NCBI RefSeq assembly: GCF_028369135.1
Contig: NZ_JAPWHW010000006.1
Location: forward strand, 62,001 to 126,000
Length of the DNA: 64,000 nucleotides
Origin: Roseovarius sp. ZX-A-9
GTDB taxonomy: Bacteria; Pseudomonadota; Alphaproteobacteria; Rhodobacterales; Rhodobacteraceae
Reading direction: 5' to 3'
Shown: piece after piece, positions 47,396 through 64,000 of the stretch
Layout of the letters: the number at the start of each line of letters is the position of its first letter
Position numbering within the stretch: position 1 is the stretch's first letter
Program-made: the position numbers and the translations under genes
Notes under the pieces: model-generated
Told to the model about the DNA's origin: nothing
What the model saw: the letters and a program-made list of their open reading frames with translations, nothing else
The model's database searches: none

Positions 47396-48408
47396 CCCGC
47401 ATGTTGACCATTCACCGCGCCGGGCCGGGCATGACGGTGCAGGATGCAGGCCGCCCCGGCTGGCTCGATTTCGGCCTGTCGCGCGGCGGGGCCGCCGACA
47501 TGCTGGCGCTGGCCGAGGGCGCGGCGCTGCTGGGCGAAAAGGGCACGCATACGGCCATTGAAATGGCCGCGATGGGCGGAGAGTTCGAAGCGTCAGAGGA
47601 TATGCGCATCGCGCTGACCGGCGCACCGATGAAAGCCAGCATCGCTGGCACAAGCTTGGCCTGGAATGCCAGCCACCTTCTGCCCGCGGGCGCGCGGCTG
47701 AGCATCGGCGCGGCGCAGACCGGCAATTACGGATATCTGCATGTCGGTGGCGGCATCGACACGCCCGAGCACCTGGGCGCGCGCTCGGCCCATATTGCAG
47801 CAGGCGTCGGTGCGGCACTGGACTCCGACACCGTTCTGAAGATCGGCCCTGACCGGGGTGGTGCCACGGGTATGACGCTGGATGTGGAGGACCGCTTTGG
47901 CGGTGGCGAGATCCGCATCGTCGCCAGTTTTCAGACCAAGCTCTTTGCCCAAGAGGAACTGACCCGACTGGAGGCCACCGAGCTGCGCCGCGACCCGCGC
48001 GGCAACCGCATGGGCATCCGGCTGGAACCTGACGGTGACGGCTTTCACGCGGAAAGCGGGCGTACTGTCGTATCAGAGGTGGTCATGCCCGGCGATATCC
48101 AGGTCACCGGCGATGGCACGCCCTTCGTGCTGATGACCGAGTGCCAGACCACGGGCGGCTATCCGCGTATCGGCACGGTTCTGCCCTGCGATCTGCGCCG
48201 CGTGGCACAGGCAGCCCCCGGCGCGCGGCTACGGTTCCGCTTTGTCACGCTGGCGGAAGCCGTCGAGCTGGAGCGCGCGGATCGCAAGATGCTGGCAACG
48301 CTGCCGCAGCGTCTGCGCGCGCTGATACGCGACCCGCACATGATGACCGACCTGCTGTCCTATCAACTGATCAGCGGTGTCGTCAGTGGCACCGAAGACG
48401 ACCCGTAA
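47392..48408 (+). CDS. pxpC: 5-oxoprolinase subunit C
   Basis: A 338-residue KipA/PxpC protein. LTIHRAGPGMTVQDAGRPGW with LSRGGAAD after it is the classic biotin-dependent-carboxylase-like N-terminus; GYLHVGGGIDTPEHLGARSA near 120 and LMTECQTTGGYPRIGTVLPC near 245 are also conserved. It completes the PxpBC half of 5-oxoprolinase. Start overlaps the pxpB stop by ATGA. It is 35 bases before pxpA. Confidence 0.92.
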   Translation: MTRMLTIHRAGPGMTVQDAGRPGWLDFGLSRGGAADMLALAEGAALLGEKGTHTAIEMAAMGGEFEASEDMRIALTGAPMKASIAGTSLAWNASHLLPAGARLSIGAAQTGNYGYLHVGGGIDTPEHLGARSAHIAAGVGAALDSDTVLKIGPDRGGATGMTLDVEDRFGGGEIRIVASFQTKLFAQEELTRLEATELRRDPRGNRMGIRLEPDGDGFHAESGRTVVSEVVMPGDIQVTGDGTPFVLMTECQTTGGYPRIGTVLPCDLRRVAQAAPGARLRFRFVTLAEAVELERADRKMLATLPQRLRALIRDPHMMTDLLSYQLISGVVSGTEDDP

Positions 48409-48443
48409 AACACCCTCTGGAACGACCACGAAGGAGACCTCAA

Positions 48444-49238
48444 ATGACCAGATCTGTCGACCTGAACGCCGATATGGGCGAAGGCTATGGCGCGTGGGAC
48501 ATCGGCGACGATGCCGCACTGCTGAAAATCGTCACCTCGGCCAACATCGCCTGCGGCATGCATGCGGGCGACTGGAATGTGATGGCGCGCACCATGGCGG
48601 CCGCGGTGCAGAACGGTGTCGGGATCGGCGCGCATCCCGGCTTTCCCGATCTGCACGGGTTCGGCCGCAACCGCATGAATCTGCCGCTGCCGTCGCTGCA
48701 AAACCTGGTGCGCTATCAGGTTGGTGCAGCGCAGGCGATGGCCCGCGCAGCGGGCGGCGCGGTGCGTCATCTGAAACTGCACGGCGCGCTGGCCAACATG
48801 ACGTCCGAGGATGAGGCAATGGCGCGGGCCTGCTACGAAGCGGCGCTGTCGGTGGCGCCGGATATCATCATCATGGTGCTTGCAGGCACCGCGCAACAGC
48901 GCGCGGCGACCGATCTGGGCTGTGGCATGGCCTGCGAGATTTTCGCGGATCGCGCCTATAACGACGATGCAACGCTGGTGGACCGTTCCCTGCCCGGCGC
49001 GGTGATCCACGACCCTGACGTGGCAGGCCCGCGCATAGCCGAGATGGTCCGTGAAGGAGCGATCATCACAGCCAGCGGCAAACGCATCGAGACGCGCATC
49101 GACACGATCTGCCTGCATGGCGACACGCCCACCGCAGTGAAGATCGCAGGCGAAGTGCGCCGCGCGCTGGAAGGTAACGGCGTGACGCTGGCGCAGTTCT
49201 CGGGCGCACCGGGGGGATACGCGCCCTATTCTGCCTAA
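48444..49238 (+). CDS. pxpA: 5-oxoprolinase subunit A (LamB/YcsF family)
   Basis: A 264-residue LamB/YcsF protein. VDLNADMGEGYGAWDIGDD at the N-terminus, SANIACGMHAGDWNVMARTM near 30, GIGAHPGFPDLHGFGRNRMN near 60 and VRHLKLHGALANM near 110 are the hallmark His/Asp-rich metal-site blocks. It supplies the hydrolytic half of 5-oxoprolinase. ATG at 48444 follows a perfect AAGGAGACCTCAA. The last base-pairs overlap the stop of the convergent small gene on the other strand. Confidence 0.93.
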   Translation: MTRSVDLNADMGEGYGAWDIGDDAALLKIVTSANIACGMHAGDWNVMARTMAAAVQNGVGIGAHPGFPDLHGFGRNRMNLPLPSLQNLVRYQVGAAQAMARAAGGAVRHLKLHGALANMTSEDEAMARACYEAALSVAPDIIIMVLAGTAQQRAATDLGCGMACEIFADRAYNDDATLVDRSLPGAVIHDPDVAGPRIAEMVREGAIITASGKRIETRIDTICLHGDTPTAVKIAGEVRRALEGNGVTLAQFSGAPGGYAPYSA

Positions 49239-49459
49239 TTCGTGGGCGCGGGTTCGGGCGGCAACAGCGAACAGCCGTCCAGCGCCTCCCCCTTGGCCAG
49301 GGCCGCTTCGCATGCCTTGGCCTTTCGGGCCGCGTGGATCTTCTGCATGCTGCCTTTGCGCGCGGCGCAGACATCGCATTCGGGCCTGTCAGGAATGGTC
49401 CCCTGCCCGCCCACCGGCTCTGCAAGCACGAGCAACGCCGCCAGTAAAAACCCCATCAT
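49235..49459 (-). CDS. Small secreted cysteine-containing protein coupled to a flavoprotein gene
   Basis: A 74-residue protein: MMGFLLAALLVLAEPVGGQG is a likely signal peptide, followed by PDRPECDVCAARKGS with a CxxC, a basic helix (KIHAARKAKACEAALAKGEA) and a proline-rich end. There are four cysteines. The ATG at 49459 overlaps the TGA of the TMADH-like gene (ATGA), which argues that it is real and coexpressed. Function is unknown; a periplasmic redox or metal-binding role is only a guess. Confidence 0.6.
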   Translation of the reverse strand: MMGFLLAALLVLAEPVGGQGTIPDRPECDVCAARKGSMQKIHAARKAKACEAALAKGEALDGCSLLPPEPAPTN

Positions 49460-51522
49460 CGCGCCTCCGATCCGACATCAATCCGGTCATGGCGCAGCGG
49501 TTCGTCCATCTCGACCACCGTGCCCAATTCTCGCGCGTAGCGATGCCCGGCATAGACCGCCGAGGCGATGATCGCTGGCGCCTCGCAATCTCCGATACGG
49601 TGCAAGGTGAATGGCAGCCCTTCGGCCCCTTCCCCCGCCCGCAGGTCGTGAAAGAGAGTATCGACTGGCCTGCGCGCGGTCACCATCACCACGTGGCGAG
49701 CGGGCAGCCTGCGTTCGGCACCGGTATAGGCGCAGGCCAGTTGCACCTCTTGCCCGTCGAAACCAGCGATGACATGCGCCGTTTCGATCCCGATCCCGAG
49801 GGTCATCATGTGGGTGCGAATGCGCCACCGCTCAGAGGTATTCGCGGCCCAGCGCGACACGCTGTCAGACGGCGTGCAATAGGTCACGTCCAGCCCCGCC
49901 TGATGCAGCCTCTCGGCGATGACGCCGCCCATGTAATAGCCGTCGCCGTCATAAACCAGTGTCGGCCCGTCCGGCAGGGTGCCCTCCATGATATCGTCGG
50001 GCGTCAGCACCCGGGTGGCCGCGTCCCCCGTGGCAATCTGATGGAACACCTCGTCATCGAACATCTCCTTGCGCCAGCGCGCGCCCGTGGCGATAGCCAC
50101 GTGATCGGCCTCGACCGCCATCACATCGGCCACGCCCATCACGCTTTCGCGGAAGATATCCACGTTAGGCATGACCAGCAGTTGCTGTTCGCGGTAGTCG
50201 CGTACGCGGATATACTCGGACATCCCCGGCAGCGCCGCTTCGCGCGTCACCCGCCCACCGATCTCGCGGCCTGCTTCGGCCAGCATCACCTCGTAGCCGC
50301 GCTGGCCAAGTGCGCGCGCGGCCTCCAGCCCCGCGGGGCCGGCGCCGACCACCAGCACCCGGCCCTCGGTCGGCTTCTCGGCAATGATCTCGGGGTGCCA
50401 GCCGCGTCGCCATTCCTCGCCCATTGTCGGATTCTGGGTGCAACGGATCGGGGCGCTCAGACTGTCACCGGCATAGCAAATGTTGCAGCCGATGCATTCG
50501 CGTATGTCCTCCGGGCGGCCCTCTTCGATCTTGCGCGGCAGGAACGGGTCAGCGATGGACGGGCGCGCCGCGCCGATAAAATCGGTGACGCCACGCCGGA
50601 TTTGGGACACCATCGTATCAGGCGAGGTAAAACGGCCCACCGTCACCACAGGCTTGTCCGTGACGGACTTTACCCATGACATGTAGGGTTCCAGCGGAGC
50701 CTCCTTGACGAAGCGCGAGACGCCCATTTCCAGGGAATAATCAGCGATATTGATGTCCCACAGGTCCGGCAATCCCTGCAGCATCTGGAACATGTCGCGG
50801 CGCTCGCCCTCGATCGGCACGCCGTCCTCGCCGATTTCTTCGTCAGCGGAAAACCGGACGGCGACGGCGCAGGTATCGCCCACCGCGTCCTTGGTTTCCT
50901 CGATCAGTTCGCGCACGAGGCGCACGCGGTTCTCCAGTGACCCGCCATATTCGTCGCTGCGCGTATTCATGCGCGGGTTGAGGAAATTCGACAGCATGTA
51001 GCCGTGGGTCGCATAGACATAGACGATATCGAAGCCCGCATCGCGCGCCCGGATCGCGGCGCGTTTGTGCCAGTGGCGGAAGGTGCGGATATCGTCCTTG
51101 TCCATCGCGCGGCACTGGAACGGATGTCCGGCGGTGTTGGGCACGCTGGCCAGATCCATCGGCGGCAGGCGGCTCATCATGTTGGGTGACCGCGCGCCGC
51201 CATACCAAAGCTCTGCCCCGGCCAGCGATCCGTGCGCGTGGACCGCATCGGTCATCAGCCGGTGCGCGCGCACATCGCTGTCGTCCCAGAGAGAGGCATA
51301 GGCATGCGGCAGATCATCCGACGTGGGGTGGATGGAATTGTATTCGGTGCAAACCACGCCCCAGCCGCCTTCGGCCTTGACCCCGCGCATCGCCGCCAGC
51401 GTGCGCGGGCGCAAGAACCCCATGCCGGTACAATGGGGCACCTGATAGAACCGGTTGGGCGCGGTCACCGGCCCAATCTGCATCGGCTCGAACAGGATGT
51501 CGTACCTTCGGTCTCTGCTCAT
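49456..51522 (-). CDS. Trimethylamine-dehydrogenase-like flavoprotein with altered substrate pocket
   Basis: A 688-residue FMN/4Fe-4S/ADP-domain protein. RFYQVPHCTGMG keeps the cysteine (residue 31) that carries 6-S-cysteinyl-FMN in trimethylamine dehydrogenase; VVCTEYNSIHP keeps Tyr60. The Fe-S motif ECIGCNICYAGDSLSAPIRC and RRGWHPE match. But of the aromatic bowl that binds trimethylamine, Trp264 and Trp355 are missing: those regions read DYSLEMGVSRF and CYAGDSLSAP. The enzyme therefore probably oxidises another secondary or tertiary amine. ATG at 51522 with GGAG eight bases upstream is preferred over a GTG at 51531. It follows a TetR gene and the ABC transporter in one minus-strand run. 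Confidence 0.85.
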   Translation of the reverse strand: MSRDRRYDILFEPMQIGPVTAPNRFYQVPHCTGMGFLRPRTLAAMRGVKAEGGWGVVCTEYNSIHPTSDDLPHAYASLWDDSDVRAHRLMTDAVHAHGSLAGAELWYGGARSPNMMSRLPPMDLASVPNTAGHPFQCRAMDKDDIRTFRHWHKRAAIRARDAGFDIVYVYATHGYMLSNFLNPRMNTRSDEYGGSLENRVRLVRELIEETKDAVGDTCAVAVRFSADEEIGEDGVPIEGERRDMFQMLQGLPDLWDINIADYSLEMGVSRFVKEAPLEPYMSWVKSVTDKPVVTVGRFTSPDTMVSQIRRGVTDFIGAARPSIADPFLPRKIEEGRPEDIRECIGCNICYAGDSLSAPIRCTQNPTMGEEWRRGWHPEIIAEKPTEGRVLVVGAGPAGLEAARALGQRGYEVMLAEAGREIGGRVTREAALPGMSEYIRVRDYREQQLLVMPNVDIFRESVMGVADVMAVEADHVAIATGARWRKEMFDDEVFHQIATGDAATRVLTPDDIMEGTLPDGPTLVYDGDGYYMGGVIAERLHQAGLDVTYCTPSDSVSRWAANTSERWRIRTHMMTLGIGIETAHVIAGFDGQEVQLACAYTGAERRLPARHVVMVTARRPVDTLFHDLRAGEGAEGLPFTLHRIGDCEAPAIIASAVYAGHRYARELGTVVEMDEPLRHDRIDVGSEAR

Positions 51523-51549
51523 GTGGTTCACTCCATTTGCGGCGGATGT

Positions 51550-52245
51550 TCAATCAATGCCCGTCTTGCTCGCACCCTCACTGTCAAAGATCGGCATGGC
51601 GATATGGCGGGGAAAGACCGACGCCAGATAGGCCCGTATCTGTGCCTTGGCCTGTGGGCGGCTGAAATGCTCGGGATACATCAGGATATTGAGGCAGATT
51701 CCGTCATAGAGCCCTTCGAGCGTGTAGGCGATCTGCTGTGCGGGCGGTCCGGTGTGGTCGCCCTCGCCGATGATCTCTGCGCAGAGCGCCCTGGACACGC
51801 CCAGTCGTTCATCGTCGATCTGGTCCACCAGATCGCGATACCGCGCCCGCCGCCCGGCCTCGCCGTAAAAGGCGTACCAGACGGCCAGCTTCTTGCGCGT
51901 GCAGATCCGCGGGTGAAAATGCGCATCAACGATGGCGAGCAGTTTTTCGGGCGCGCCCAGTCCGGCGTCACGGTAGGATTTCATCCAGTGGTCGTGATGC
52001 TCGCGGGCCAGATACATCAGCGTTTCTTCCAGCAGGTTCTGCTTGCTCTGGAAATGAAAGTTGACGATCCCGATCGACAATCCGGCAAACTCGGTCACGG
52101 TGGACATGGTGGTACCGGCGATGCCGTGTTTGGCAATCGAATTGATGGTTGCATCAATCAACTGCTGGCGCCGCACCTCCTTGGAGGCAGTGCGCCGGGA
52201 CGCCGGTGCCTTGCGGTCTGCGCTGGAGGGCTTGGTCGTCGGCAT
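51550..52245 (-). CDS. TetR-family regulator, BetI-like
   Basis: A 231-residue regulator with a basic N-terminal tail (about 1-22). The helix-turn-helix spans TINSIAKHGIAGTTMSTVTE and FAGLSIGIVNFHFQSKQNLL, close to BetI. The rest is a helical ligand domain (WYAFYGEAGRRARYRDLVDQ near 115). BetI senses choline; here the neighbours are a polyamine-type ABC transporter and a TMADH-like enzyme, so a quaternary or methylated amine is a plausible effector. ATG at 52245 with GAGGA upstream is used. It lies 68 bases after the ABC ATPase gene and 27 bases before the flavoprotein start. Confidence 0.88.
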   Translation of the reverse strand: MPTTKPSSADRKAPASRRTASKEVRRQQLIDATINSIAKHGIAGTTMSTVTEFAGLSIGIVNFHFQSKQNLLEETLMYLAREHHDHWMKSYRDAGLGAPEKLLAIVDAHFHPRICTRKKLAVWYAFYGEAGRRARYRDLVDQIDDERLGVSRALCAEIIGEGDHTGPPAQQIAYTLEGLYDGICLNILMYPEHFSRPQAKAQIRAYLASVFPRHIAMPIFDSEGASKTGID

Positions 52246-52313
52246 GGCAATATTGTCCTCGGAGTGGTGGTCCCGGCTCTTGGTCGGCGGCGGGTTGGTG
52301 GTGCCCGGGCGCG

Positions 52314-53420
52314 TCAGTCGCCTTGCAGGATCACGATGGACTCGGGCGACCATGACAGCCAGACCTGCGCACCGATGCCCTGCTCGCGCGCTTCGCGCCC
52401 GCCACGCGATTGATTGGGGGTGGAGACGGCAATCGGTGTCTCCTTGCCCTCGATGGCGACGTGGAAATGGCTGCGTTCGCCCAGATAGGCGGCTTCGCAG
52501 ACCTTTCCTGCCACCGCATGCGCCGTATCGGGTTTTTCCGGCGTCAGTGAAAACTTCTCGGGGCGCAGCGCGACCTGCACCGGGGCGCCGTCGGGCTGGG
52601 TTATATTCTCGATCGGCATGGGGAAGGTCCCCAGCCCCTCGGCCTCAATCGCGGCACTGGCGGCACCGTTGCGGCGGACCGTTGCGGGAAAGAAGTTCAT
52701 GTTCCCGATAAAGCTGGCGACCGCGCGGGTCTTTGGCGACTCGTAGAGCCCTTCAGGCGTGTCCACCTGCAGCACCTTGCCCCCCGCCATCACCGCGATC
52801 CGGTCCGACAGGGTCAGCGCCTCTTCCTGGTCGTGGGTGACAAAGACGAAGGTGATACCGACCTGCCGTTGCAGCGCGCGCAGTTCCAGCTGCATCTGTT
52901 CGCGCAACTGCTTGTCCAGCGCGCCCAGCGGTTCATCCAGCAGCAGAACCTTGGGCCGCAGGATCAGCGCCCGCGCCAGCGCGATCCGCTGCCGCTGCCC
53001 GCCCGACAACTGCGTCGCCTTGCGGTCGCCATAGCCCGGCAGCTTGATCAGCTCCAGCATCTCATCGACCATTTCGCGGCGCTTGGCGCGCGGCAGTTTC
53101 TTTTTGCGCAAGCCGTAGGCGATGTTGTCCGCAACGCTGAGATGCGGAAAGATCGCGTAGCTCTGGAACACCATGTTCACCGGGCGGCGATGCGGCGGCA
53201 CGTCCGACATCGGCTGCCCGTCGATATAGATCTCGCCCTTGGTCGTCGATTCGAACCCCGCCAGCATCCGCAACAGCGTGGTCTTGCCGCAGCCCGATGC
53301 CCCCAGAAGCGAGAAGAATTCCCCCTTCCCGATATCAATCGATATCTCGTCGACCGCCTGAAACGCGCCGAAGAACTTGCTCACGCGGTCGATCAAGATG
53401 AATGCGTCTGCATGGGTCAT
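52314..53420 (-). CDS. Polyamine-type ABC transporter ATP-binding protein
   Basis: A 368-residue PotA-like ATPase. Walker A is LGASGCGKTTLLRMLAG near residue 40, the Q-loop MVFQSYAIFPHLSV, signature LSGGQRQRIALARALILRP near 135 and Walker B VLLLDEPLGALD. The C-terminal TOBE domain (about 280-368) includes VALRPEKFSL. It energises import by the two adjacent permeases. Start at 53420, 14 bases after the permease stop. Confidence 0.93.
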   Translation of the reverse strand: MTHADAFILIDRVSKFFGAFQAVDEISIDIGKGEFFSLLGASGCGKTTLLRMLAGFESTTKGEIYIDGQPMSDVPPHRRPVNMVFQSYAIFPHLSVADNIAYGLRKKKLPRAKRREMVDEMLELIKLPGYGDRKATQLSGGQRQRIALARALILRPKVLLLDEPLGALDKQLREQMQLELRALQRQVGITFVFVTHDQEEALTLSDRIAVMAGGKVLQVDTPEGLYESPKTRAVASFIGNMNFFPATVRRNGAASAAIEAEGLGTFPMPIENITQPDGAPVQVALRPEKFSLTPEKPDTAHAVAGKVCEAAYLGERSHFHVAIEGKETPIAVSTPNQSRGGREAREQGIGAQVWLSWSPESIVILQGD

Positions 53421-53434
53421 GTGCCGGGCGCCCT

Positions 53435-54241
53435 TTATTGGTCAGATTCAAGACCCCGCCGCCCGAAATACTGGGCGACGAAGACCACGAAAAACGAAAC
53501 GAAGAGGATCAGCGCAGACAGCGCCAAGATCGACGGGAATTCCTGGGGAAAGCGCAGCTGCCCCCAGATATACATCGGCAGCGTGGGGTCGGTGCCGGTC
53601 AGAAAGAACGCCATGATGAATTCATCGAACGAGATGGTGAAGGACAACAACAGGCTGGCCACGATGCCGGGAAACACCATCGGCATCGTCACACGCCAGA
53701 AGGTCCACCAACCGTTTTCGCCCAGATCGGCCGACGCCTCCTCCATGGATTTGTCGAACCCTTCGAACCGCGGCAGCAATGTTGCCACCGCGAAAGGCAG
53801 GCAGACGATCAGGTGGCCCAGCGTCACGGTAAACAGCGACAGCGGCACGCCCAGCCGGCTCATCAGGATCAGCAGCGCCACACCAAAGATGATCCCCGGT
53901 ATGACCAGCGGCATCATGATGAACGTCACCAACACGTTCTTGCCCGGCAGCCGATAGCGGGTGATCGCGCGCGCAGCGATAACGCCGAGAATGGTCGAAA
54001 TCACGGCCACCGCCGCGCCCACCTTGACGCTGTTCCACAGCGCGTTCCACACCGGCTCGCGGCTCCATAATTCGACATACCACTTGGTTGTCAGACCGGT
54101 CAGCGGAAACTTTACATAGACCGAGTCATTGAAGCTGAAGAGCGGGATGAAGAGCACCGGCAGATACAGAACCACGAGAAAGAGGATCGCGTAGATCTGC
54201 AACGGTCGGTTGGGGCGTTTGATATACGAAAGATCGCTCAT
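53435..54241 (-). CDS. Polyamine-type ABC transporter permease, PotC-like
   Basis: A 268-residue permease with six helices. The EAA loop reads MEEASADLGENGWWTFWRVT near residue 165 and precedes the LP-type MPMVFPGI, as in binding-protein-dependent inner-membrane components. LFVVLYLPVLFIPLFSFNDS near 20 is typical of PotC. ATG at 54241 overlaps the stop of the PotB-like gene (ATGA). Confidence 0.92.
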   Translation of the reverse strand: MSDLSYIKRPNRPLQIYAILFLVVLYLPVLFIPLFSFNDSVYVKFPLTGLTTKWYVELWSREPVWNALWNSVKVGAAVAVISTILGVIAARAITRYRLPGKNVLVTFIMMPLVIPGIIFGVALLILMSRLGVPLSLFTVTLGHLIVCLPFAVATLLPRFEGFDKSMEEASADLGENGWWTFWRVTMPMVFPGIVASLLLSFTISFDEFIMAFFLTGTDPTLPMYIWGQLRFPQEFPSILALSALILFVSFFVVFVAQYFGRRGLESDQ

Positions 54242-55164
54242 GCAATTTTCTCCCTCGCGAGGCGGGTGATGAACAAGAACACCAGCGCAATCAAAGAAAT
54301 CCACATCATCAGGACCATCGACAGCGTGGCCCCCATCGGCCAGTTGTTCACCGGGCCGAATTGCAACTGGATGAAATTGCCGATCATCGCGCCATCCGGC
54401 CCGCCCAGCAATGCCGGCGTGATATAGTCACCCGTGGTGGGGATGAAGATCAGGAAACACGCCGCGATCACGCCGGGCAGCGACAGCGGCAACGTGATCC
54501 GCATGAACCGCGCCACCGGCCCGTCGCCCAGATCGGTGGCCGCCTCCAGCAGCGACTTGTCGATCTTTTCAAGGCTGACATAGAGCGGCAGGATCGCGAA
54601 AGCCGCCCATGCATGGGCCAGCGTGATGATCACCGCCTCCTGGCTGTACAGGAGGAATTCCAGCGGCGCCTCGATCAGTCCAACAGCCATCAGGCCGGAA
54701 TTGATCACCCCCTCATAGCCGAGGATCACCTTCCAAGCGAAAACCCGCAACAGGTAGCTGGTCCAGAATGGCAGTGTCATCAGGATGATCCACATCATCT
54801 TGTTTCGATGGACGTGGAAGGCGACAAAATAGGCCATCGGGTAGCACAGGATAACCGTGGCAACCGTGGCAATGCCCGAAATCCAGAACGACCGGCTGAG
54901 CAATGCGCCATAGATCGGTTCGTTCCATGTCCGCGCGTAGTTGGCCATCGTCAGTGTCGTGTCGAAATCGAAGCCCTGACGGGTCCAGAGGCTCATCGTG
55001 ACGAGGATGAAAAACGGGGCGATGATGCCGACCCCCATAACCAGCAATGTCGGCGTCATCAGCAGAAAACCACGCAGGTTCTCGTGGCGGTGAAGCAGCC
55101 CGCTCAGCCCGCCCCGGCCAGGACTGCGCTGCGCTTTCGTGCTGGAATTCGACGTTTCTGTCAT
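54238..55164 (-). CDS. Polyamine-type ABC transporter permease, PotB-like
   Basis: A 308-residue permease. After a Ser/Arg-rich cytoplasmic tail (1-30), hydrophobic segments begin at FLLMTPTLLVMGVGIIAPFF. The EAA loop is LLEAATDLGDGPVARFMRIT near 205, followed by LPLSLPGV. TFPFWTSYLLRVFAW-like LPFWTSYLLRVFAWKVIL near 135 is characteristic of PotB. It lies downstream of the receptor gene behind an attenuator hairpin. Confidence 0.92.
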   Translation of the reverse strand: MTETSNSSTKAQRSPGRGGLSGLLHRHENLRGFLLMTPTLLVMGVGIIAPFFILVTMSLWTRQGFDFDTTLTMANYARTWNEPIYGALLSRSFWISGIATVATVILCYPMAYFVAFHVHRNKMMWIILMTLPFWTSYLLRVFAWKVILGYEGVINSGLMAVGLIEAPLEFLLYSQEAVIITLAHAWAAFAILPLYVSLEKIDKSLLEAATDLGDGPVARFMRITLPLSLPGVIAACFLIFIPTTGDYITPALLGGPDGAMIGNFIQLQFGPVNNWPMGATLSMVLMMWISLIALVFLFITRLAREKIA

Positions 55165-55236: not shown

Positions 55237-56367
55237 TCAGAAACCGGCCTTGATCTGTTCGAACGTCTCGTTCATCTTCGTTTCCCACTCTTGGGTCTGC
55301 GGCACCTGGAAATGGCCCGCAGACAAGACTTCGGAGGGGGTCTTGCTCAGCCCGAGGCTGTCCAGCTTGGCCGCGTCAAACGCATCGAACGCCTTGATGT
55401 TGGAGTGACCGTAACCATAATCGTTGATCATGAAATGCCCGGTCTCGACGCTCAGCAGGCTGTCGATGATCTCATACGCCTTGTCGACCTTGGGCGCGTC
55501 CTTGTGAATCATCAGGCCACAGACCCAGGTCAGCGCGCCTTCCTTCGGCTTGGCAAACTTGACCGGCACGCCTTCGGCCTGCAACTGCACCGCAGAGCTT
55601 GCCCAGGTCATCGACGCGACCATCTCTCCTGAGGACAGCGCCTGCTCCAGCGTTGTGTTGTCGTCGGTATAGGTCCGCATCAGCGGGCGCTGTTCGCGCA
55701 TCACTGCGGCGATCTTCTCGAACGCCTCGGGCGTGTCGATATCCTTGAAATCGACCCCCGCCTTGATCGCCCCGACCCACCATGCGTCAGCCCCCGAGCC
55801 GAGCGAGCCGAGCTTGCCCGAATATTTCGGGTCCCACAGGATATCCCAGCTCTCTTCCTTGCCCTCCAGATCGACAAGGTCGGTCCGGTAGGTGATCGAG
55901 GTCTGACCCCAGTCGAAGGGCGCCATCCAGATCGAACCGCCTTCGGCATCGTTGCCCTCAAGGTCGACCAGCGCCGGAATGACATCGGGCCAGTTGCCCA
56001 GACGCGACGGGTCGATCGGCTGGAACAGTCCGGTCGCGACCCAGCGCGGCATCGCCTGATTGCACGGGTGTGACACGTCCACGACGAACCCGCCGCGCAT
56101 CTTGGTCAGCGCCTCTTCGGAGCCGCCGAAAACGGCAAAGTTTGGCATCTCGCCATTGTTGTTCGCCATATAGGGACCGAACAACTCAGGGATGTCATAC
56201 CCGCCCCATGTGAAATACGTCCCCTGATCCTCGGGGGCGGCCATCGCGCGTCGCGCACCCGCTGGCAACGTGGCGATCGCCACCCCGCTTGCCAGTAGTG
56301 AGCGTGCAAACGCCCGGCGACTCATCTTGCCTTCGCGCACCGCGCCTAGCTGATCAACAATATCCAT
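55237..56367 (-). CDS. Polyamine-type ABC transporter substrate-binding protein (Tat-exported)
   Basis: A 376-residue PotD/PotF-like receptor. The N-terminus has a twin-arginine signal, MSRRAFARSLLASGVAIATL near residue 15, cleaved after a later AMA near 43. The mature part contains TYFTWGGYDIPELFGPYMAN, VVDVSHPCNQAMPRWVATGL near 95 and WMAPFDWGQTSITYRTDLVD near 150. Family members bind polyamines, opines, or compounds such as glycine betaine analogues. The start at 56367 follows AAGGGAG. A BetI-like operator candidate lies 130 bases upstream. Confidence 0.9.
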   Translation of the reverse strand: MDIVDQLGAVREGKMSRRAFARSLLASGVAIATLPAGARRAMAAPEDQGTYFTWGGYDIPELFGPYMANNNGEMPNFAVFGGSEEALTKMRGGFVVDVSHPCNQAMPRWVATGLFQPIDPSRLGNWPDVIPALVDLEGNDAEGGSIWMAPFDWGQTSITYRTDLVDLEGKEESWDILWDPKYSGKLGSLGSGADAWWVGAIKAGVDFKDIDTPEAFEKIAAVMREQRPLMRTYTDDNTTLEQALSSGEMVASMTWASSAVQLQAEGVPVKFAKPKEGALTWVCGLMIHKDAPKVDKAYEIIDSLLSVETGHFMINDYGYGHSNIKAFDAFDAAKLDSLGLSKTPSEVLSAGHFQVPQTQEWETKMNETFEQIKAGF

Positions 56368-56645: not shown

Positions 56646-57302
56646 TCACGCGCGGTCAATATGCCCTACAAGCGTGGGCACCATCCGGCCCAGAAAGACC
56701 CGTGTGGCTCGTTCGGCCCGGGCGCGGTCGATCGCACCGGGGGCGACGTGCAGATGCTGCCAATACCCGTCTGTCAGCGTCTCCATCCAGTCCGCCAGTT
56801 CTTCGGCCGCGCCAGGTGCCGCGCCTTGCATCAAGGCCGACCAGACCCGGGTCAGTGCGTCGCGGCGGCGCTGGTCGAACTCCTGCGCCACTTCGGCATA
56901 TTGCGCGGAAAAGCGCAGCTCGCCCCAGAATGCGAACCAGAGCGGCAGCACCTTGGGCCCGCAGGCGCGGGGATCAAAATCGGCAGCAACAATCGCGCCC
57001 AGTTGTTCGCGAGGATCCTCCCCCGCCTTCTCCAGCGCGCGCATCCAGAGCGCCTCGTACTGGGAATATAGATCGCGCAGCGTCTCGGTCAGCAACCCGT
57101 TTTTGGACTTGAAATAGAAGACGGCCACGCCCTGGCTCAGCCCGGCCTCGTCCGCGACGGTGGCCAGAGTCGTGCGGGCCAGCCCGTGCGTCAGGATCGA
57201 CCGCTTGGCCGCGTCAAGCAACTGCCGCCGTCTTCGATTCGCGTTTTCGGTACGCTCTTTTCGCGGTCTGGAGCGTGTTTCAGCCATATCATGCCTTTTC
57301 AT
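56646..57302 (-). CDS. TetR-family regulator, BetI-like (second copy in the locus)
   Basis: A 218-residue regulator. RRRRQLLDAAKRSILTHGLA leads into the helix-turn-helix ARTTLATVADEAGLSQGVAV with FYFKSKNGLL, as in BetI. The helical ligand domain includes LPLWFAFWGELRFSAQYAEV near 105. It is about the same size as the other TetR protein of the locus (51550-52245) and shares the WxAFxGE block, so they are paralogues. ATG at 57302 (GAGG upstream) or 57287 can be the start. It is divergent from the FAD-oxidase operon, with a palindrome in the gap. Confidence 0.88.
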   Translation of the reverse strand: MKRHDMAETRSRPRKERTENANRRRRQLLDAAKRSILTHGLARTTLATVADEAGLSQGVAVFYFKSKNGLLTETLRDLYSQYEALWMRALEKAGEDPREQLGAIVAADFDPRACGPKVLPLWFAFWGELRFSAQYAEVAQEFDQRRRDALTRVWSALMQGAAPGAAEELADWMETLTDGYWQHLHVAPGAIDRARAERATRVFLGRMVPTLVGHIDRA

Positions 57303-57358
57303 TCCGGGCGCCTCATCCCCTTTTTGGCACAGGAAATCAGCGCCGTCAGCCCTTATTT

Positions 57359-57378
57359 TTATGTGAGCGCTCAAATAA
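57359..57378. promoter_or_regulatory. TetR operator candidate in the divergent promoter
   Basis: TGAGCGCTCA (57364-57373) is a perfect palindrome, extended by TTAT and ATAA on the two sides to a 20-base dyad with a single mismatched pair. It lies between the BetI-like gene (minus) and the FAD-oxidase operon (plus), where a shared operator is expected. Confidence 0.7.
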
Positions 57379-57429: not shown

Positions 57430-59067
57430 ATGACCGAAAACACCAAATATGACGCGATCATCGCGGGCGCGGGCCATAACGGCCTGACCACGGCCGCCTA
57501 TCTGGCGCGCGCGGGCCTGCGTGTTCTGGTGGTCGAGAAAAACGACTGGATCGGCGGCGCGGCGGTCAGCCGCTCGCTGCACGAGGGCTGGACCTACTCT
57601 AATTGCTCCTACGTCTGCTCGCTCTTGCGGCGCGAAATCGTGCGCGACCTCGATCTGCCCAAATTCGGGCTTCAGGTGATCCCCTACGAGGGCGGTGCCA
57701 GCTTTACCAAGAGCGGTGATTACTTCGCCTATTACTCGGACCATGACGCCCTGCGCCGGGAAATGGCGCGCCATTCCCCCCGCGATGCGGATGCTTACGC
57801 GCGCTACAGTCAGGCGATCATGCGCCAGTGCCGTTTCATCCGGCCCTTTCTGCTGCGCGACGCGCCGGACCCCACATCCCTGCGCCCGCGCGACCTGAAC
57901 GAACTGGCCTATCTGGTGAAAAAGGCCCACGGGCTGGGCAGTCGCGAGCTTGGCGAAACGCTGCGATTCTGGACCATGTCCATCGGTGATCTGCTGGACG
58001 AGCATTTCGAGAATGACCTGATCAAGGCGCATCTGGCAGGCTCCGGCATCATCGGCACTGGCCTCGGTGTTTATTCGCCGGGTACGGCCTACGTTCTGCT
58101 GCATCACTACATGGGCGATCTGGATGGCGGCATCGGCGCATGGGGCTTTGCCCGGGGCGGGATGGGCGCAATCACCGCCGCGATGGGGGCCGCGTTCGAG
58201 CATTTCGGCGGCACGATCCGGACCGGCTCGGGCGTCGAGGAATTCATCGTCGAAAACGGTCGGGTCATCGGCGTCGCGCTGGAGAATGGCGATACGTTCC
58301 ACGCGCCGGTGGTGGCGTCGAACATGGATGTCAAACGCACCTTCCTGAAGCACGTCCCGCGCGCCAAGCTGCCCGGTGATTTCGCCACCGCGGTCGAGCG
58401 TTTCAAGATTCGCGGCTCTTCGGCCAAGCTGAATATCGCGCTGGACCGGATGCCCGACATGCCTGCCGCGCCGCCTCATGCCAGTTTCCTGCGTGGCGAT
58501 ATGCACGTCTCGGAAAGCCTGATGGAGCTGGAACGTGCCTATGATGACTGGAAGGATGGCCGCTGGTCCGCCAAACCCTATATCGACATGCTGATCCCCA
58601 GCCAGATCGACCCAACCATGGCCCCGTCAGGCAGCCACATGATGACGGTCTTCGTGCAATACGCGCCCTATGACCTGGAGGTGAACGGCACCCGGTCAGG
58701 CGCGAATTGGGATGATGCGCAGCGCGCCGCGATGGCCGAGGTGGTGATCGACCGTATCGCCATAGCCTGCCCCGACATACGCGAGCGTATTGTTCACAAG
58801 GAGGTCCGCAGCCCCGCCGATATCGAGCGTGAAGTCGGTCTGACCGAAGGCAACATTTTCCAGGGCGAACTCACGTTCGATCAGCTGCTGTTTAACCGGC
58901 CTGTACCGGGATTTTCCCAGTACGAATCTCCCATCAAGGGGCTCTATCTGGTCGGCTCCTCCGCCCATCCCGGCGGCGGGGTCATGGGCGCGCCCGGCGC
59001 CAATGCCGCGCGCGCCATCCTGCGGCGCGAAACCCGTGACAACCGCATGAAGGGTTACGCCGCATGA
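57430..59067 (+). CDS. FAD-dependent oxidoreductase, CrtI/amine-oxidase type (first paralogue)
   Basis: A 545-residue flavoprotein. IIAGAGHNGLTTAAYLARAG with VVEKNDWIGG after it is the dinucleotide fold; the C-terminal FAD-contact block reads LYLVGSSAHPGGGVMGAPGA near 510. The overall shape is that of CrtI-like phytoene-desaturase/amine-oxidase relatives, but there are no carotenoid genes here. ARGGMGAITAAMGAAFEHFG near 240 is the family's central motif. It is the first gene of a five-gene operon with a paralogue, a GcvT-like protein, an aminotransferase and a dioxygenase, which points to catabolism of a methylated amine. The TGA overlaps the next ATG. Confidence 0.85.
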   Translation: MTENTKYDAIIAGAGHNGLTTAAYLARAGLRVLVVEKNDWIGGAAVSRSLHEGWTYSNCSYVCSLLRREIVRDLDLPKFGLQVIPYEGGASFTKSGDYFAYYSDHDALRREMARHSPRDADAYARYSQAIMRQCRFIRPFLLRDAPDPTSLRPRDLNELAYLVKKAHGLGSRELGETLRFWTMSIGDLLDEHFENDLIKAHLAGSGIIGTGLGVYSPGTAYVLLHHYMGDLDGGIGAWGFARGGMGAITAAMGAAFEHFGGTIRTGSGVEEFIVENGRVIGVALENGDTFHAPVVASNMDVKRTFLKHVPRAKLPGDFATAVERFKIRGSSAKLNIALDRMPDMPAAPPHASFLRGDMHVSESLMELERAYDDWKDGRWSAKPYIDMLIPSQIDPTMAPSGSHMMTVFVQYAPYDLEVNGTRSGANWDDAQRAAMAEVVIDRIAIACPDIRERIVHKEVRSPADIEREVGLTEGNIFQGELTFDQLLFNRPVPGFSQYESPIKGLYLVGSSAHPGGGVMGAPGANAARAILRRETRDNRMKGYAA

Positions 59068-60620
59068 CTCGGTTTGATGCGATTGTGATCGGCGGCGGGA
59101 TCAACGGACTGACCGCAGCCGCCGTGCTGGCGCGGCGCGGCAAATCGGTCTGCGTGCTGGATCAGGCGGAAACCTTGGGCGGCATGGCAGCACCGGGGCC
59201 GGACGGCGCGCCGCGCGGCGCGCATCTGCTCTATAATCTCAGCCCGGCTGTCCGCCGCGATATCGGTCTTGGCAATCGCGACTGGCCGTTTCGTAGCGCC
59301 CCCCTGCCCTCGGTCGCGTTGTCACCCGATGGCCGCCATGTGGTGCTGCGCGGTGGCGAAGCGACAAATGGGGACAGCAGTGCCCATCCCGACGCGGACG
59401 CCTATCGCGCGCTGCACGGGCGGCTGGCCAAATACGGCGCGCTGCTGCGGCAACTGGCCGAGAATGCCCCGCCCGGCTTTGACGGCAAGCTCGCCTCGCG
59501 CAGCGCGTTACGTCAAATGATGCGGCTGGGCTGGTTCGGGCTCGGGCTCAAACGGCTGGGCCGCGACGAGATGCGCAATTTCCTGCGCGTGCTGCTATCC
59601 AATGCCTATGACACGATCCTGGACGAAATGCCCGATGGCCCGATGGCCGGACTGCTGGCCGCCGATGCGGTGCGCGGGGCGGCGGCCGGCCCGCGTGCCC
59701 CCGGCACCGTATTCAGCCTGATCTACCGCATGGGCCATGGCGGCGAGGTCACGCTGCCGATGGGCGGGATGAGCGCGCTATGCAGTGCCTTCGCAGACGC
59801 CGCGCGTAATGCGGGCTGTCAGATCGAGACCGGCGTTACTGTCACCCGCGTGCTGATCGAAGCGGGGGCTGCCTGCGGTGTCGAGACCGCCGATGGCCGC
59901 CAGATCACCGCGCCGCTGGTGTTGACCAGCACCGGGGCAGAGGTGACCTGCCACCTGGCCGGCCCGCAGCATTTCGATATCGAAGCGACGCGCCGGATGC
60001 GCAATGTTCGCGCCCGTGGCACCGCCGCCAAGGTAAATCTGCGGCTCAGCAGCCTGCCTGCGGTCATCGGGCTGAGCCGCGATCTGATGGCCGCGCGCCT
60101 CATAGCCGCGCCCTCTGCCACCTATGTAGAGCGTGCCTTCAACCCGTCGAAATACCGCGAGATGTCCCCCAACCCGGTGATCGAGGCAGTGATTCCGTCC
60201 GTCACCGACCCCGGCCTGACCTCTGGGGACAGTCATTACCTGTCAGCGATCGTGCAATACGCGCCGTGCGATCTGGAAGGCGGTTGGACCGAGACGGCAA
60301 AACGCGCGCTGGCGAAAGCAACCATCGACACGTTGGCCACCTACATGCCGGACCTGCCCGGCCAGATCACCGCGAGCGAAGTGCTGACCCCCGTCGATAT
60401 CGAGGCGCAGACCGGCGCGCCGGGCGGGCATTGGCACCATGCGGAAATGAGCCTTGACCAGTTGCTGACCTTGCGTCCGGCAAACGGGCTGGGGCGCTAT
60501 GCGCTGGGTCCTGCGGGGCTCTATCTCTGCGGCGCGTCGGCGCATCCGGGCGGCGACATCATGGGCCTTGCGGGCCGCAATGCGGCTCTGGCCGCGCTTG
60601 CATCGGAGGGCCGGAAATGA
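59064..60620 (+). CDS. FAD-dependent oxidoreductase, CrtI/amine-oxidase type (second paralogue)
   Basis: A 518-residue paralogue of the preceding protein. AIVIGGGINGLTAAAVLARR is the FAD motif, GHGGEVTLPMGGMSALCSAF near 230 corresponds to the partner's central block and LYLCGASAHPGGDIMGLAGR near 488 to its C-terminal block. The two are coupled by ATGA and probably form a heteromer or act in sequence, as occurs for other paired FAD enzymes. It overlaps the GcvT-like gene by four bases (ATGA). Confidence 0.85.
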   Translation: MTRFDAIVIGGGINGLTAAAVLARRGKSVCVLDQAETLGGMAAPGPDGAPRGAHLLYNLSPAVRRDIGLGNRDWPFRSAPLPSVALSPDGRHVVLRGGEATNGDSSAHPDADAYRALHGRLAKYGALLRQLAENAPPGFDGKLASRSALRQMMRLGWFGLGLKRLGRDEMRNFLRVLLSNAYDTILDEMPDGPMAGLLAADAVRGAAAGPRAPGTVFSLIYRMGHGGEVTLPMGGMSALCSAFADAARNAGCQIETGVTVTRVLIEAGAACGVETADGRQITAPLVLTSTGAEVTCHLAGPQHFDIEATRRMRNVRARGTAAKVNLRLSSLPAVIGLSRDLMAARLIAAPSATYVERAFNPSKYREMSPNPVIEAVIPSVTDPGLTSGDSHYLSAIVQYAPCDLEGGWTETAKRALAKATIDTLATYMPDLPGQITASEVLTPVDIEAQTGAPGGHWHHAEMSLDQLLTLRPANGLGRYALGPAGLYLCGASAHPGGDIMGLAGRNAALAALASEGRK

Positions 60621-61795
60621 GCGTTTTCACCGATCCCGCCCTTGGCCTGATCGACGGGCCGTTCCAGCCCCGGCTCGCAGAGCAGAGCCGCGCCAAGGCA
60701 TGGTATGGCTGGGCGGGCTATATTGCGCCTGCCGTGCTCGACTCGGTCGAGTTCGAATATTTTGCGTTGCGCAATCAGGCGTCGCTCTTTGACATCTCGC
60801 CGATGCATAAATACCGGATCGCGGGGCCCGACGCGCTGGCCGCGATCAACCGTCTGATTACCCGTGACGCCACCAAGATCGAGGTGGGCCGCGTCGCCTA
60901 CTGTGTCTGGTGCGACGAAGAGGGGATGGTCATCGACGATGGCACGCTCTTTCGGCTGGACGACACCGATTGGCGGCTCTGCTGTCAGGAGCCGATGCTG
61001 ACATGGCTGCTGGATGCCACATGGGGGTTTGACGCCACAGTGACGGACGAGAGCGACACCGTGGCGGGCCTTGCCTTGCAGGGACCGACAGCGTTTTCGA
61101 TCCTCGATGCGGCGGGCCTGGATGTGGCGGACCTCAAGCCGTTCGACTTGCGCGAGGTGGAGCCGGGGCTGATGATCTCGCGGACCGGGTTCACCGGCGA
61201 TCTGGGCTACGAGATCTGGATGGACCGCGACGCCGCCCTGCCCGTCTGGGACCGGCTGTGGGAGGCCGGCGCGCTCTGGGGTCTGCGCGCCATTGGCTAT
61301 GAGGCGCTGAACATCGCCCGGATCGAGGCCGGGTATCTGGCCGCGGGCGTCGATTTCCAACCCATCCACGCCACCGAGCGTCTGCACCGTGGCAAGACGC
61401 CGTTCGAGCTGGGCCTTGGCTGGCTGGTCAATTTCGACAAGGGGCATTTCAACGGCCGCCGCGCGCTTCTGGCGGCGCGGGATGCTCCGCGCACGCTGCT
61501 TCTGAAGGTCGATGTGGAAGGGTTCAAACCCGCCACCGGGGCTTTGGTCTACCATGCCAAGCGGCGTGAGGTCGGGCATATCACGTCCGGCCTGTGGTCG
61601 CCGACCGCCAAGCGCAACATCGCGCTGGCGCATGTAAAGGCATCCCACGCCCGGCAGCGCCCCGGCAACCTGTGGGCCGAAGTCTATACATCCCAAGAAG
61701 GCCAGTGGAGCACCCGGATGGCCCGGCTGATACCGCTGAAGACACCGTTTTTTGCGCCGCCGCGCGCCCGCGCCACGCCACCGGGCCGCATCTGA
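60617..61795 (+). CDS. Aminomethyltransferase-family (GcvT-like) protein
   Basis: A 392-residue folate-binding protein. FDISPMHKYRIAGPDALAAI near residue 58 is the GcvT start block; LALQGPTAFSILDAAG near 155 and SRTGFTGDLGYEIWMDRD near 190 (with the conserved Gly-Tyr-Glu) are the barrel hallmarks; NIARIEAGYLAAGVDF near 235 is the strand used for tetrahydrofolate binding. The C-terminal barrel includes GHITSGLWSPTAKRNIALAH. GcvT relatives accept one-carbon units from N-methyl compounds onto tetrahydrofolate, which fits two upstream FAD enzymes. It is not close to DmdA. Confidence 0.87.
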   Translation: MSVFTDPALGLIDGPFQPRLAEQSRAKAWYGWAGYIAPAVLDSVEFEYFALRNQASLFDISPMHKYRIAGPDALAAINRLITRDATKIEVGRVAYCVWCDEEGMVIDDGTLFRLDDTDWRLCCQEPMLTWLLDATWGFDATVTDESDTVAGLALQGPTAFSILDAAGLDVADLKPFDLREVEPGLMISRTGFTGDLGYEIWMDRDAALPVWDRLWEAGALWGLRAIGYEALNIARIEAGYLAAGVDFQPIHATERLHRGKTPFELGLGWLVNFDKGHFNGRRALLAARDAPRTLLLKVDVEGFKPATGALVYHAKRREVGHITSGLWSPTAKRNIALAHVKASHARQRPGNLWAEVYTSQEGQWSTRMARLIPLKTPFFAPPRARATPPGRI

Positions 61796-61825
61796 GGCAC
61801 CCAAGAGATCCAACCGGAGAGAGTA

Positions 61826-63217
61826 ATGACCGAGTTAGTAACCGCCGCCGCGAACACCCCTACCGACACCGACCTGACGGAATGGGACCGCGATCACCAC
61901 CTGCACCCCTGGGCCAGCACCGACAGTTGGCGCAGCGACGACTACATGCGCGTGAACACCGCGCGCGGCATCTATCTGTGGGACAGCACCGGCAAGCGGT
62001 TCATCGACGGGCCGGGCGGCATGTGGTGCGTGCAGATCGGCTATGGTCGCCAGGACATGGCCGACGCCATCGCCAAACAGGTGATGGAAATGCCCTATGC
62101 CTCGCCGTGGTCTTCGACCTCGGAACCGGCCGCCGTGCTGGCGCGCAAAATCGCCGAGCTTGCTCCGGGCGACCTGAATAACGTGTTTTTCACCACCGGT
62201 GGCTCGACCGCGGTCGATACCGCGCTGCGCACCGTGCAGTTCTATAACAACCGGCTTGGCCGCCCGGACAAGAAGCTGATCCTCGCCCGTGAGAAGGGCT
62301 ATCACGGTTCGACCTACCTTGCCTCGACGGTTACGGGCAAGGAACGGTTCAATACCAAGTTCGACAACGCCAGCGATCTGGTGCGCTTCTTGCCGGATGT
62401 GAACCCCTATGGGCGGCCCGAAGGCATGACGCTGGAGCAGTGGTGCGATCAGAAGGTCGGTGATCTGGAAGCGATGATCGAGACAGAGGGGGCCGACAAT
62501 ATCGGCGCGTTCATCGCCGAGCCGATCCTGTGTTCGGGTGGAGTGATCGTGCCCCCGCCCGGCTATCACAAGCGGACACTGGATATCTGCCGCAAGCATG
62601 ACATCCTTTATATCTCGGACGAGGTGGTGACAGGGTTTGGCCGCCTTGGCCACTGGTTCGCGTCAGAGGACGTGTTCGGCATCGTGCCGGACATGATCAC
62701 CTGCGCCAAGGGGCTGACCTCGGGTTATCTGCCGCTGGGGGCCTGCATCATGTCCGACGCATTACTGAAACGGATGGAGGCCCCGGCCGGCGAGGAGGTC
62801 TTCTACAATGGCTACACCTATTCCGGCCACCCGGTCAGCTGTGCCGCAGCCCTGAAGAATATCGAGATCATGGAAAACGAGGATATCCTCGGCCATGTAC
62901 TGCGGGTCACGCCGCATTTTCAGGCTCGGCTGAAACAGATCGGCGAGGATTTCGATATCGTCGGCGACGTGCGCGGCATGGGGTTGCTGGGTTGCATCGA
63001 ATGCCGCCCGGACCTGCCGCAAGAGACGTTCGATGCGCATCTGAAATTCGGCGCGCGGCTCGACATGGTCTGTGAGGAAATGGGTCTGATGCTGCGCCCG
63101 TCCGGCAATATGGCGGTTTTCTCGCCGCCGCTGATCATCACCAAAGACGAAATTGACGATATGTTCGACATCATGGAGGCGGGGCTGAAAAAGCTCAGCG
63201 CAGAATACAATGGTTGA
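61826..63217 (+). CDS. Class III aminotransferase
   Basis: A 463-residue PLP enzyme. [20 protein letters not shown] near 120 is the phosphate cup, [17 protein letters not shown] near 155 holds the stacking residue, [18 protein letters not shown] near 255 the cofactor Asp, and [18 protein letters not shown] near 290 the Schiff-base Lys. Such enzymes use omega-amino acids, beta-amino acids or polyamine derivatives. A good GGAGAGAG precedes the ATG at 61826. It follows the GcvT-like gene by 30 bases and overlaps the next gene by eight. Confidence 0.9.
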
Positions 63218-64000
63218 TATCAAGAGACTGAAGAACGACCCGGCCAGCGTGGCAGAAACCCTGCTGAAGGATGGCGCGGTGATCGTGGAAAACCTGGCGG
63301 AGCCTGCTCTGCTGGATCAGATACTGGCGGATTTCGATGCGCCGTTCGAGGAGCAGGGCGACAAGTTCGCCAATGACTTCAACGGGTACAAGACGCGCCG
63401 TCTGGCCAGCATCCTGGCCTACAGCACCGCGTCGGCGGACCTGATCGCGCATCCATTGGTGATGGGGGTTGCCGACCGCGTGCTGAAACGCCACTGCACC
63501 AACTACCGACTGGGCAGTTCCACCGCGATCGAAATTCACCCCGGTGAAGGCGGCCAGCAGTTGCACCGAGACGATGATTTCTATCCCATTCGCATCCCCG
63601 GCGTGGAGTTCCAGATTTCCGCCATGTGGGCGCTGACGGACTTCACGCTGGAAAACGGCGCAACCCGCGTGGTGCCCGGATCCCAAGACCTGCGCAAGAT
63701 CGCCGATATCCCCGAGACGGACGTGACGCAGGCCGTGATGCCGCGCGGGTCTGTCCTGTTCTACCTCGGCGGCGCGGTGCATGGCGGCGGCAAGAATGAA
63801 AGCGACGCCCCGCGCACCGGCCTGATCACCACCTATTCGCTGGGCTGGCTGCGGCAGGAAGAAAACATGTATCTGTCCGTGCCCCGTGAAAAGGCAGACG
63901 CCTACCCCGAACATGTCCGCCGCCTGATGGGCTATCAGGCGCATGGGCCGTATCTGGGCGTCTACCCGGACGATCCCGACGGTTACTGGTTCGACGCCTG
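63210..64000 (+). CDS. Phytanoyl-CoA dioxygenase-family protein, cut by the window end
   Basis: From the ATG at 63210, inside the end of the aminotransferase gene, 263 residues are readable to the edge. The double-stranded beta-helix has [11 protein letters not shown] near residue 110 (HxD), GAVHGGGKN near 190 (distal His) and [15 protein letters not shown] with the 2-oxoglutarate-binding Arg near 203. [15 protein letters not shown] is typical of PhyH proteins. It should be an Fe(II)/2-oxoglutarate oxygenase hydroxylating a small substrate of this operon. The C-terminus is outside the window. Confidence 0.88.

Follow-up and report, generated by a model that had tools for sequence, protein, structure and literature searches.

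The 64,000-nt stretch of the Roseovarius sp. ZX-A-9 genome analyzed here (positions 62,001 to 126,000 of contig NZ_JAPWHW010000006.1; hereafter, the window) ends in a plus-strand operon encoding two flavin adenine dinucleotide (FAD) oxidoreductases (FAD1 and FAD2), a stand-alone GcvT-like folate protein, a class-III aminotransferase and a PhyH-type 2-oxoglutarate oxygenase (Table 1). We propose that this operon serves to break down an imported N-methylated amine by oxidative, folate-linked N-demethylation, the route probably starting from a quaternary ammonium compound and ending in a primary omega-amine, and we put the probability of this reading at about 0.58. The gene content, the conserved gene order, the folate-site residues of GcvT and a conserved palindrome are established. 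An open-literature search covering titles and abstract openings (most subscription papers being outside its scope) named no such operon, in agreement with a preliminary description of this DNA, which knew of no assigned pathway with this set of genes.

According to PMC13390433, methylated amines make up an important share of the dissolved organic nitrogen in the sea. The predicted demethylation core is recurrent and patchy and its substrate is not assigned, so that part of methylated-amine cycling would not yet be readable from genomes. The fixed core, a distinctive signature of the receptor pocket and the single conserved palindrome offer direct ways of testing candidate substrates.

Conservation and distribution of the core

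A search with the GcvT protein in 149 genomes of the family (threshold E 1e-60) gave matches in 20 of them, the window's genome included, and the order FAD1-FAD2-GcvT was the same in all 19 others. When named genomes were scanned with an alignment of FAD1 and the best 80 loci taken (FAD1, being the query, is present in these by construction), these came from roseobacters, Hoeflea, Mesorhizobium, Shinella, Phyllobacterium, Kiloniella, Comamonadaceae, marine Gammaproteobacteria and others. The two sets together (19 + 80 = 99) left 95 non-redundant loci once four duplicates were removed. FAD1 is 60-92 % identical to these 95 relatives, the nearest among the loci kept being that of Pseudohalocynthiibacter aestuariivivens (92 %; records very near the window's genome may be omitted). 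In every one of the 86 non-redundant loci that extend 4 kb or more downstream, which represent Alpha-, Beta- and Gammaproteobacteria, FAD2 and GcvT follow in order, a second FAD1-labelled paralogue being counted as valid in the FAD2 place. Because this order is kept across genera, chance is excluded, and the three genes FAD1-FAD2-GcvT form a genuine unit. Even sampling shows FAD1 to be rare, with a patchy spread: at E 1e-180 it was found in 7 of 289 genomes from the class and in 6 of 299 from the phylum, both counts including the window's genome.

The folate protein and its flavoprotein partners

The GcvT protein scores 184.7 bits on GCV_T (cut-off 25.6), and its best match among solved structures is trimethylamine N-oxide (TMAO) demethylase. 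The folate-site residues Tyr, Asp and Glu (Y95, D108, E199) are kept in 72 of 72 GcvT sequences; D108 corresponds to D96, the folate-site Asp of T. maritima. On the models of individual enzymes, the protein reaches 237.4 bits for TMAO demethylase (cut-off 1100) and 136.1 bits for DmdA (cut-off 410).

As to the paired FAD oxidases of the preliminary description, two FAD genes with Amino_oxidase/DAO matches are indeed present, but their nearest models are those of CrtO and CrtI rather than of DAO-type oxidases. The best DAO stretch covers only the dinucleotide site (residues 8-59 of FAD1 and 5-39 of FAD2), and CrtO and CrtI are the best named NCBIfam families of the pair. FAD1 stays below the carotenoid cut-offs (276.7 vs 1000 bits for CrtO, 122 vs 238.1 bits for crtI_fam), and its best fold match is 4rep.

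In dimethylglycine dehydrogenase (DMGDH) and sarcosine oxidase, a DAO-type FAD oxidase is fused to, or paired with, GcvT. The core shares with Tdm, dimethylglycine oxidase/dehydrogenase and the heterotetrameric sarcosine oxidase a GcvT-type folate domain with the Tyr, Asp and Glu, and the link to demethylation, whereas in the operon GcvT is a separate gene accompanied by two CrtO/CrtI-like FAD proteins. Since the core lacks a defining feature of tetrahydrofolate (THF)-linked oxidative N-demethylases, the DAO-type FAD partner, we do not file the core as a member of that type; as judged from sequence, it appears to be a variant of the type with a different FAD partner.

Genes that recur beside the core

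Neighbors were called by open frames and tblastn, each label being the best of a reference set and not a statement of orthology, and they were tallied in the 66 non-redundant loci that reach 19 kb (the 29 shorter ones were excluded). A Pot-type ATPase was found in 57 of these long loci and a class-III aminotransferase of either type in 59, in 40 of them no more than 4.5 kb from FAD1. Rieske genes of three labels (RSKa in 27, RSKb in 13 and RSKc in 15 loci) occur in 37 loci overall, an MttB-like gene in 4, and one or the other, i.e. a quaternary-amine-oxygenase-like Rieske or an MttB-like gene, in 39; a gene of the trimethylamine dehydrogenase (TMADH) class is present in 14.

RSKc aligns with the GbcA model along its whole length (295.6 bits, below the cut-off of 670), while the nearest solved structures are 3n0q and 3vca (the latter we take to be Stc2) for RSKb and carnitine monooxygenase for RSKa. 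GbcA, Stc2 and CntA attack quaternary ammonium. The Rieske oxygenases carried by the operon's relatives are nearest to those of these systems (for glycine betaine, stachydrine and carnitine, respectively) but fall below the GbcA cut-off and are joined to a class-III aminotransferase and a Pot-type importer; the window's cluster has no Rieske gene. For GbcA, action on quaternary ammonium is described in PMC12478193. That source also deals with the roseobacter MtgBCD system, whose MtgB/MttB methyltransferases have MttB-like counterparts close to the core in 4 of 66 loci. Corrinoid chemistry belongs to those methyltransferases, and the window's cluster is without such a gene. Elsewhere, the window's genome holds 15 Rieske-domain and 8 MttB-family matches; a relative of RSKb (64 %) and one of RSKc (46 %) are encoded outside the cluster.

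The PhyH oxygenase (PF05721, 99.3 bits) keeps its metal ligands, H119-R-D121 plus a conserved His further on, in all 10 sequences aligned, of which two are duplicate loci. It is an accessory of few loci (6 of 66 long ones) and is absent from most relatives, so that a role as a general step of the pathway is not supported. Roseovarius mucosus (L059) and P. aestuariivivens (L046) are culturable relatives whose operon is of the PhyH type. Rieske or MttB genes occur in none of the 6 PhyH loci as against 39 of the 60 others (Fisher p 0.003, a value that ignores kinship), and a seventh PhyH locus, shorter than 19 kb and thus outside the tally (L030), has neither. All PhyH loci but one (L061) are of the Rhodobacteraceae type. 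PhyH as a stand-in for the Rieske or MttB enzyme is offered as an idea only; a PhyH-family demethylase for 2'-O-methyl nucleosides, reported in PMC12709175, provides a precedent for demethylation by this family.

The receptor and the TMADH-class enzyme

Alignment of 75 receptors with PotD and PotF (duplicate loci and second copies within one locus included) separated two types: type 1 (n=59, the window's receptor among them), defined by Cys at PotD position 257, and type 2 (n=16). At the positions E36, D168, E171 and D257, which we take to be the ligand acids of PotD, the window's receptor has G, S, D and C. Type 1 receptors have Gly for E36, no acid at D168 (where PotF itself has Ala) and Asp for E171; they keep the aromatic residues W34, Y37, W229 and W255, and also Y293 in 58 of them, and their HPC and WVCG residues are invariant in all 59. 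Type 2 receptors keep D257 in 16 of 16 and D36 in 14 of 16, and may still bind polyamines. The window's receptor is of the same family as the polyamine receptors PotD and PotF and shares their conserved aromatic residues, but is without E36, D168 and D257. We infer that it does not bind a classical polyamine: with these acids lost, an aromatic pocket with one acid would suit a methylated monocation. A dicationic polyamine was considered as its ligand and is weakened by the same losses. The receptor types also differ in company, with a methyltransferase in 34 of 37 type 1 loci vs 4 of 14 others, and a PRK07036-type aminotransferase in 35 of 37 vs 3 of 14.

The TMADH-class enzyme has in common with TMADH and histamine dehydrogenase the flavin Cys (C34), presumably the one carrying 6-S-cysteinyl-flavin mononucleotide, the cluster residues C346, C349, C352 and C364, presumably the four 4Fe-4S ligands, as well as Tyr60 and His172. 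The aromatic bowl of TMADH, Tyr60-Trp264-Trp355, is not kept. The window's enzyme has Tyr-Tyr-Asp (Y64, Y265, D356) vs Tyr-Trp-Trp in TMADH and Gln-Trp-Asp in histamine dehydrogenase 3k30 (alignment read by eye).

Proposed pathway and alternatives

In the proposed pathway, the PotD-class receptor and its ATP-binding cassette (ABC) importer would bring the compound in, and the BetI-like repressors would sense it. The quaternary nitrogen would be attacked first, by a Rieske oxygenase in many relatives and perhaps by an MttB-like enzyme in a few; in the window's subgroup the opening enzyme could be PhyH or else a Rieske enzyme whose gene lies elsewhere. The TMADH-class enzyme and/or FAD1-FAD2 would then oxidize tertiary and secondary N-methyl groups, and GcvT, to judge from its homology and invariant residues, would move the methylene group onto THF to give methylene-THF. 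The class-III aminotransferase would remove the freed amine last. Oxidative N-demethylation with one-carbon capture, as put forward in the preliminary description, is supported as a prediction by the folate residues of GcvT, its match to TMAO demethylase and the Rieske or MttB genes in 39 of 66 loci. Of the further suggestion that the aminotransferase and PhyH process the remaining skeleton, the aminotransferase half is plausible, whereas PhyH, present in few loci, gains no support as a general step.

Several observations weigh against this reading. No Rieske or MttB gene lies beside the window's own cluster, and in 21 of 66 long loci Rieske, MttB and PhyH are all absent. Some labels are weak (7 of 27 RSKa at 31-37 % identity, 9 of 15 RSKc at 41-46 %), and RefSeq names the Rieske neighbors aromatic ring-hydroxylating or SRPBCC proteins. 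The FAD pair is by name nearest to carotenoid enzymes, and the fold match does not decide between desaturase and oxidase. In the GcvT set, Asn112 of the T-protein is mostly replaced by Gln and Arg227 mostly by Leu. The receptors fall into two types (59 and 16 sequences), which points to more than one substrate, and an S-adenosylmethionine (SAM) methyltransferase, which the model does not explain, is found near the core in 42 of 66 long loci.

The core could instead act on a polyamine itself, the FAD pair oxidizing secondary amine bonds and GcvT having another role, as a variant of polyamine catabolism. The frequent Pot-type ATPase and the amine-oxidase genes nearby would fit, as would a marine gammaproteobacterial locus (L090) where a PuuA-like synthetase (211 bits, cut-off 650), a DAO-family oxidase and a class-I amidotransferase adjoin the core, and an aminotransferase paralogue (45 % identical) that in the window's genome adjoins AguB and an agmatine-deiminase-like gene. 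We nevertheless consider it unlikely: E36, D168 and D257 are absent from 59 of 59 type 1 receptors (at position 257 by construction, as Cys defines the type), the folate-site residues of GcvT are kept, and the Rieske and MttB partners suit N-methyl chemistry. Somewhat harder to credit is direct methyl transfer to folate by GcvT, the reaction that DmdA carries out on the sulfonium compound dimethylsulfoniopropionate (DMSP), which would leave the demethylated product to the FAD pair. A DMSP-lyase-family cupin does occur in 6 of 66 long loci and GcvT does match the DmdA model, but it scores higher on TMAO demethylase, and the fixed gene order suits a joint oxidase and folate step.

A biosynthetic, carotenoid-like role, in which FAD1 and FAD2 desaturate the substrate while GcvT serves a structural or repair function, appears very unlikely; the CrtO/CrtI assignment and the 4rep fold match that would favor it are set against a CrtO score far under the cut-off, and the importer, repressor, aminotransferase and Rieske/MttB partners suit catabolism of an imported amine. 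The preliminary description had named homarine and trigonelline, both marine N-methylated zwitterions, as possible substrates. A pathway for such a ring compound, whose genes lay outside our comparison (the literature search brought up no paper on homarine genes), gains no support, and we hold it to be highly improbable. The aromatic ring-hydroxylating names given by RefSeq would agree with it, as would a glyoxalase/dioxygenase-superfamily gene that recurs in 11 of the best 80 loci. The latter, however, has no NCBIfam match and lies on the other strand past a peptidase-family gene; no known pyridinium-ring-opening enzyme was identified among the classified neighbors (many being unclassified), and a class-III aminotransferase with a Pot-type importer suits an aliphatic amine better.

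Within the preferred reading, N-demethylation of an imported amine, a bolder version can be put forward tentatively, although we regard it as doubtful. FAD1-FAD2-GcvT might represent folate-linked N-demethylases of a new class, with a CrtI-fold FAD pair in place of the DAO-type oxidase, and serve as a portable core joined to differing quaternary-amine openers (Rieske, MttB-like or, here, PhyH as a 2-oxoglutarate-dependent N-demethylase) for the use of methylated omega-amines that have yet to be recognized as nutrients of bacteria.

Regulation

When up to 4 mismatches are allowed, the palindrome TTATTTGAGCGCTCAAATAA is found upstream of FAD1 in 24 of 93 sequences, including that of the window. 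The motif was derived from the window and one relative, so that these two are biased; in the control of 30 plain shuffles per sequence, no shuffle had fewer than five mismatches among the 40 rows listed. It occurs once in the window's genome (Table 1). As it overlaps the first possible start of TetR 1, the actual start of that gene is probably further in. The start of TetR 2 is probably downstream of the listed one. Both regulators score below the NCBIfam BetI cut-offs (111.7/201.3 and 108/118 bits for TetR 1; 107.2/201.3 and 109.9/118 bits for TetR 2).

Gene organization and other neighboring genes

The operon genes were read as open frames, spaced by -4, -4, +30 and -8 bases from FAD1 to PhyH, and Pfam profile matches support each of their names; the five-gene operon initially described is confirmed. 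The 4-base overlaps at the FAD1/FAD2 and FAD2/GcvT joints fit translational coupling. The stop codon of PhyH ends one base beyond the window (the gene corresponds to L004:1211-2002). The divergent BetI-like regulator, the polyamine-type importer (receptor, ATPase and two permeases) and the TMADH-like enzyme of the preliminary description were likewise all recovered.

Table 1. Features of the cluster (window coordinates).
Feature	Position	Strand	Remarks
FAD1	57430-59067	+	FAD oxidoreductase, amine-oxidase/desaturase fold, nearest CrtO/CrtI models; best conserved core gene
FAD2	59064-60620	+	FAD1 paralogue, 30 % identical; 4-base overlap with FAD1
GcvT-like folate protein, stand-alone	60617-61795	+	GCV_T and GCV_T_C; Y95, D108, E199 invariant (n=72)
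Class-III aminotransferase	61826-63217	+	Aminotran_3; NCBIfam PRK07036, 639.8 bits (cut-off 618)
PhyH-type 2-oxoglutarate oxygenase	63210-64001	+	PhyH; HxD and a later His
BetI-like TetR regulator 1	56646-57374	-	TetR_N and BetI-type C-terminal domain; divergent from FAD1
Candidate operator palindrome TTATGTGAGCGCTCAAATAA	57359-57378	.	Between the divergent TetR 1 and FAD1 genes
PotD/PotF-class substrate-binding protein	55237-56367	-	Pfam; alignment with PotD/PotF
ABC permease 1	54238-55164	-	BPD_transp_1, 28.1 bits, barely over the cut-off of 26.4
ABC permease 2	53435-54304	-	BPD_transp_1, 47.1 bits
ABC ATPase	52314-53420	-	ABC_tran and TOBE_2
BetI-like TetR regulator 2	51550-52353	-	TetR; listed start overlaps the ATPase gene
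TMADH/histamine-dehydrogenase-class enzyme	49456-51531	-	Bowl residues Y64, Y265, D356

Upstream of the cluster (46948-49238), the window carries a carboxyltransferase-domain gene and a LamB/YcsF-family gene, presumably as in the 5-oxoprolinase PxpABC, and just downstream of the window the SAM methyltransferase of this genome lies on the minus strand (L004:2580-3458). The genome contains 25 GCV_T-domain rows and looks rich in methylated-amine genes (this one genome was counted). One of its other regions (L005, C61:22000-41000) brings together a choline-type ABC importer, choline-kinase-like and DMGDH-like genes, the aminotransferase paralogue, AguB, the agmatine-deiminase-like gene and the Rieske gene 64 % identical to RSKb.

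Among the relatives, five marine gammaproteobacterial loci (L090, L097, L102, L106, L108; open frames) have a gene of 459-461 amino acids and a DAO gene with the core, which in L090 are the PuuA-like and DAO-family genes mentioned above, and an arginine-deiminase/DDAH-family gene is found near the core of one of these (L106:6809-7687). In rhizobial loci (e.g. L104:15276-20217), dipeptidase-family, glyoxalase/dioxygenase-superfamily and sulfatase-family genes lie beyond the core, these labels occurring in 13, 11 and 11 of the best 80 loci, respectively. Rhizobia also encode, after GcvT, a protein of ~85 amino acids with no Pfam match (L091:14400-14654), which resembles a segment lying at the beginning of the DMSP-lyase-family cupin (PF16867), or immediately ahead of it, in other loci (L042:17013-17918; L039:16828-17694), with matches in 34 loci.

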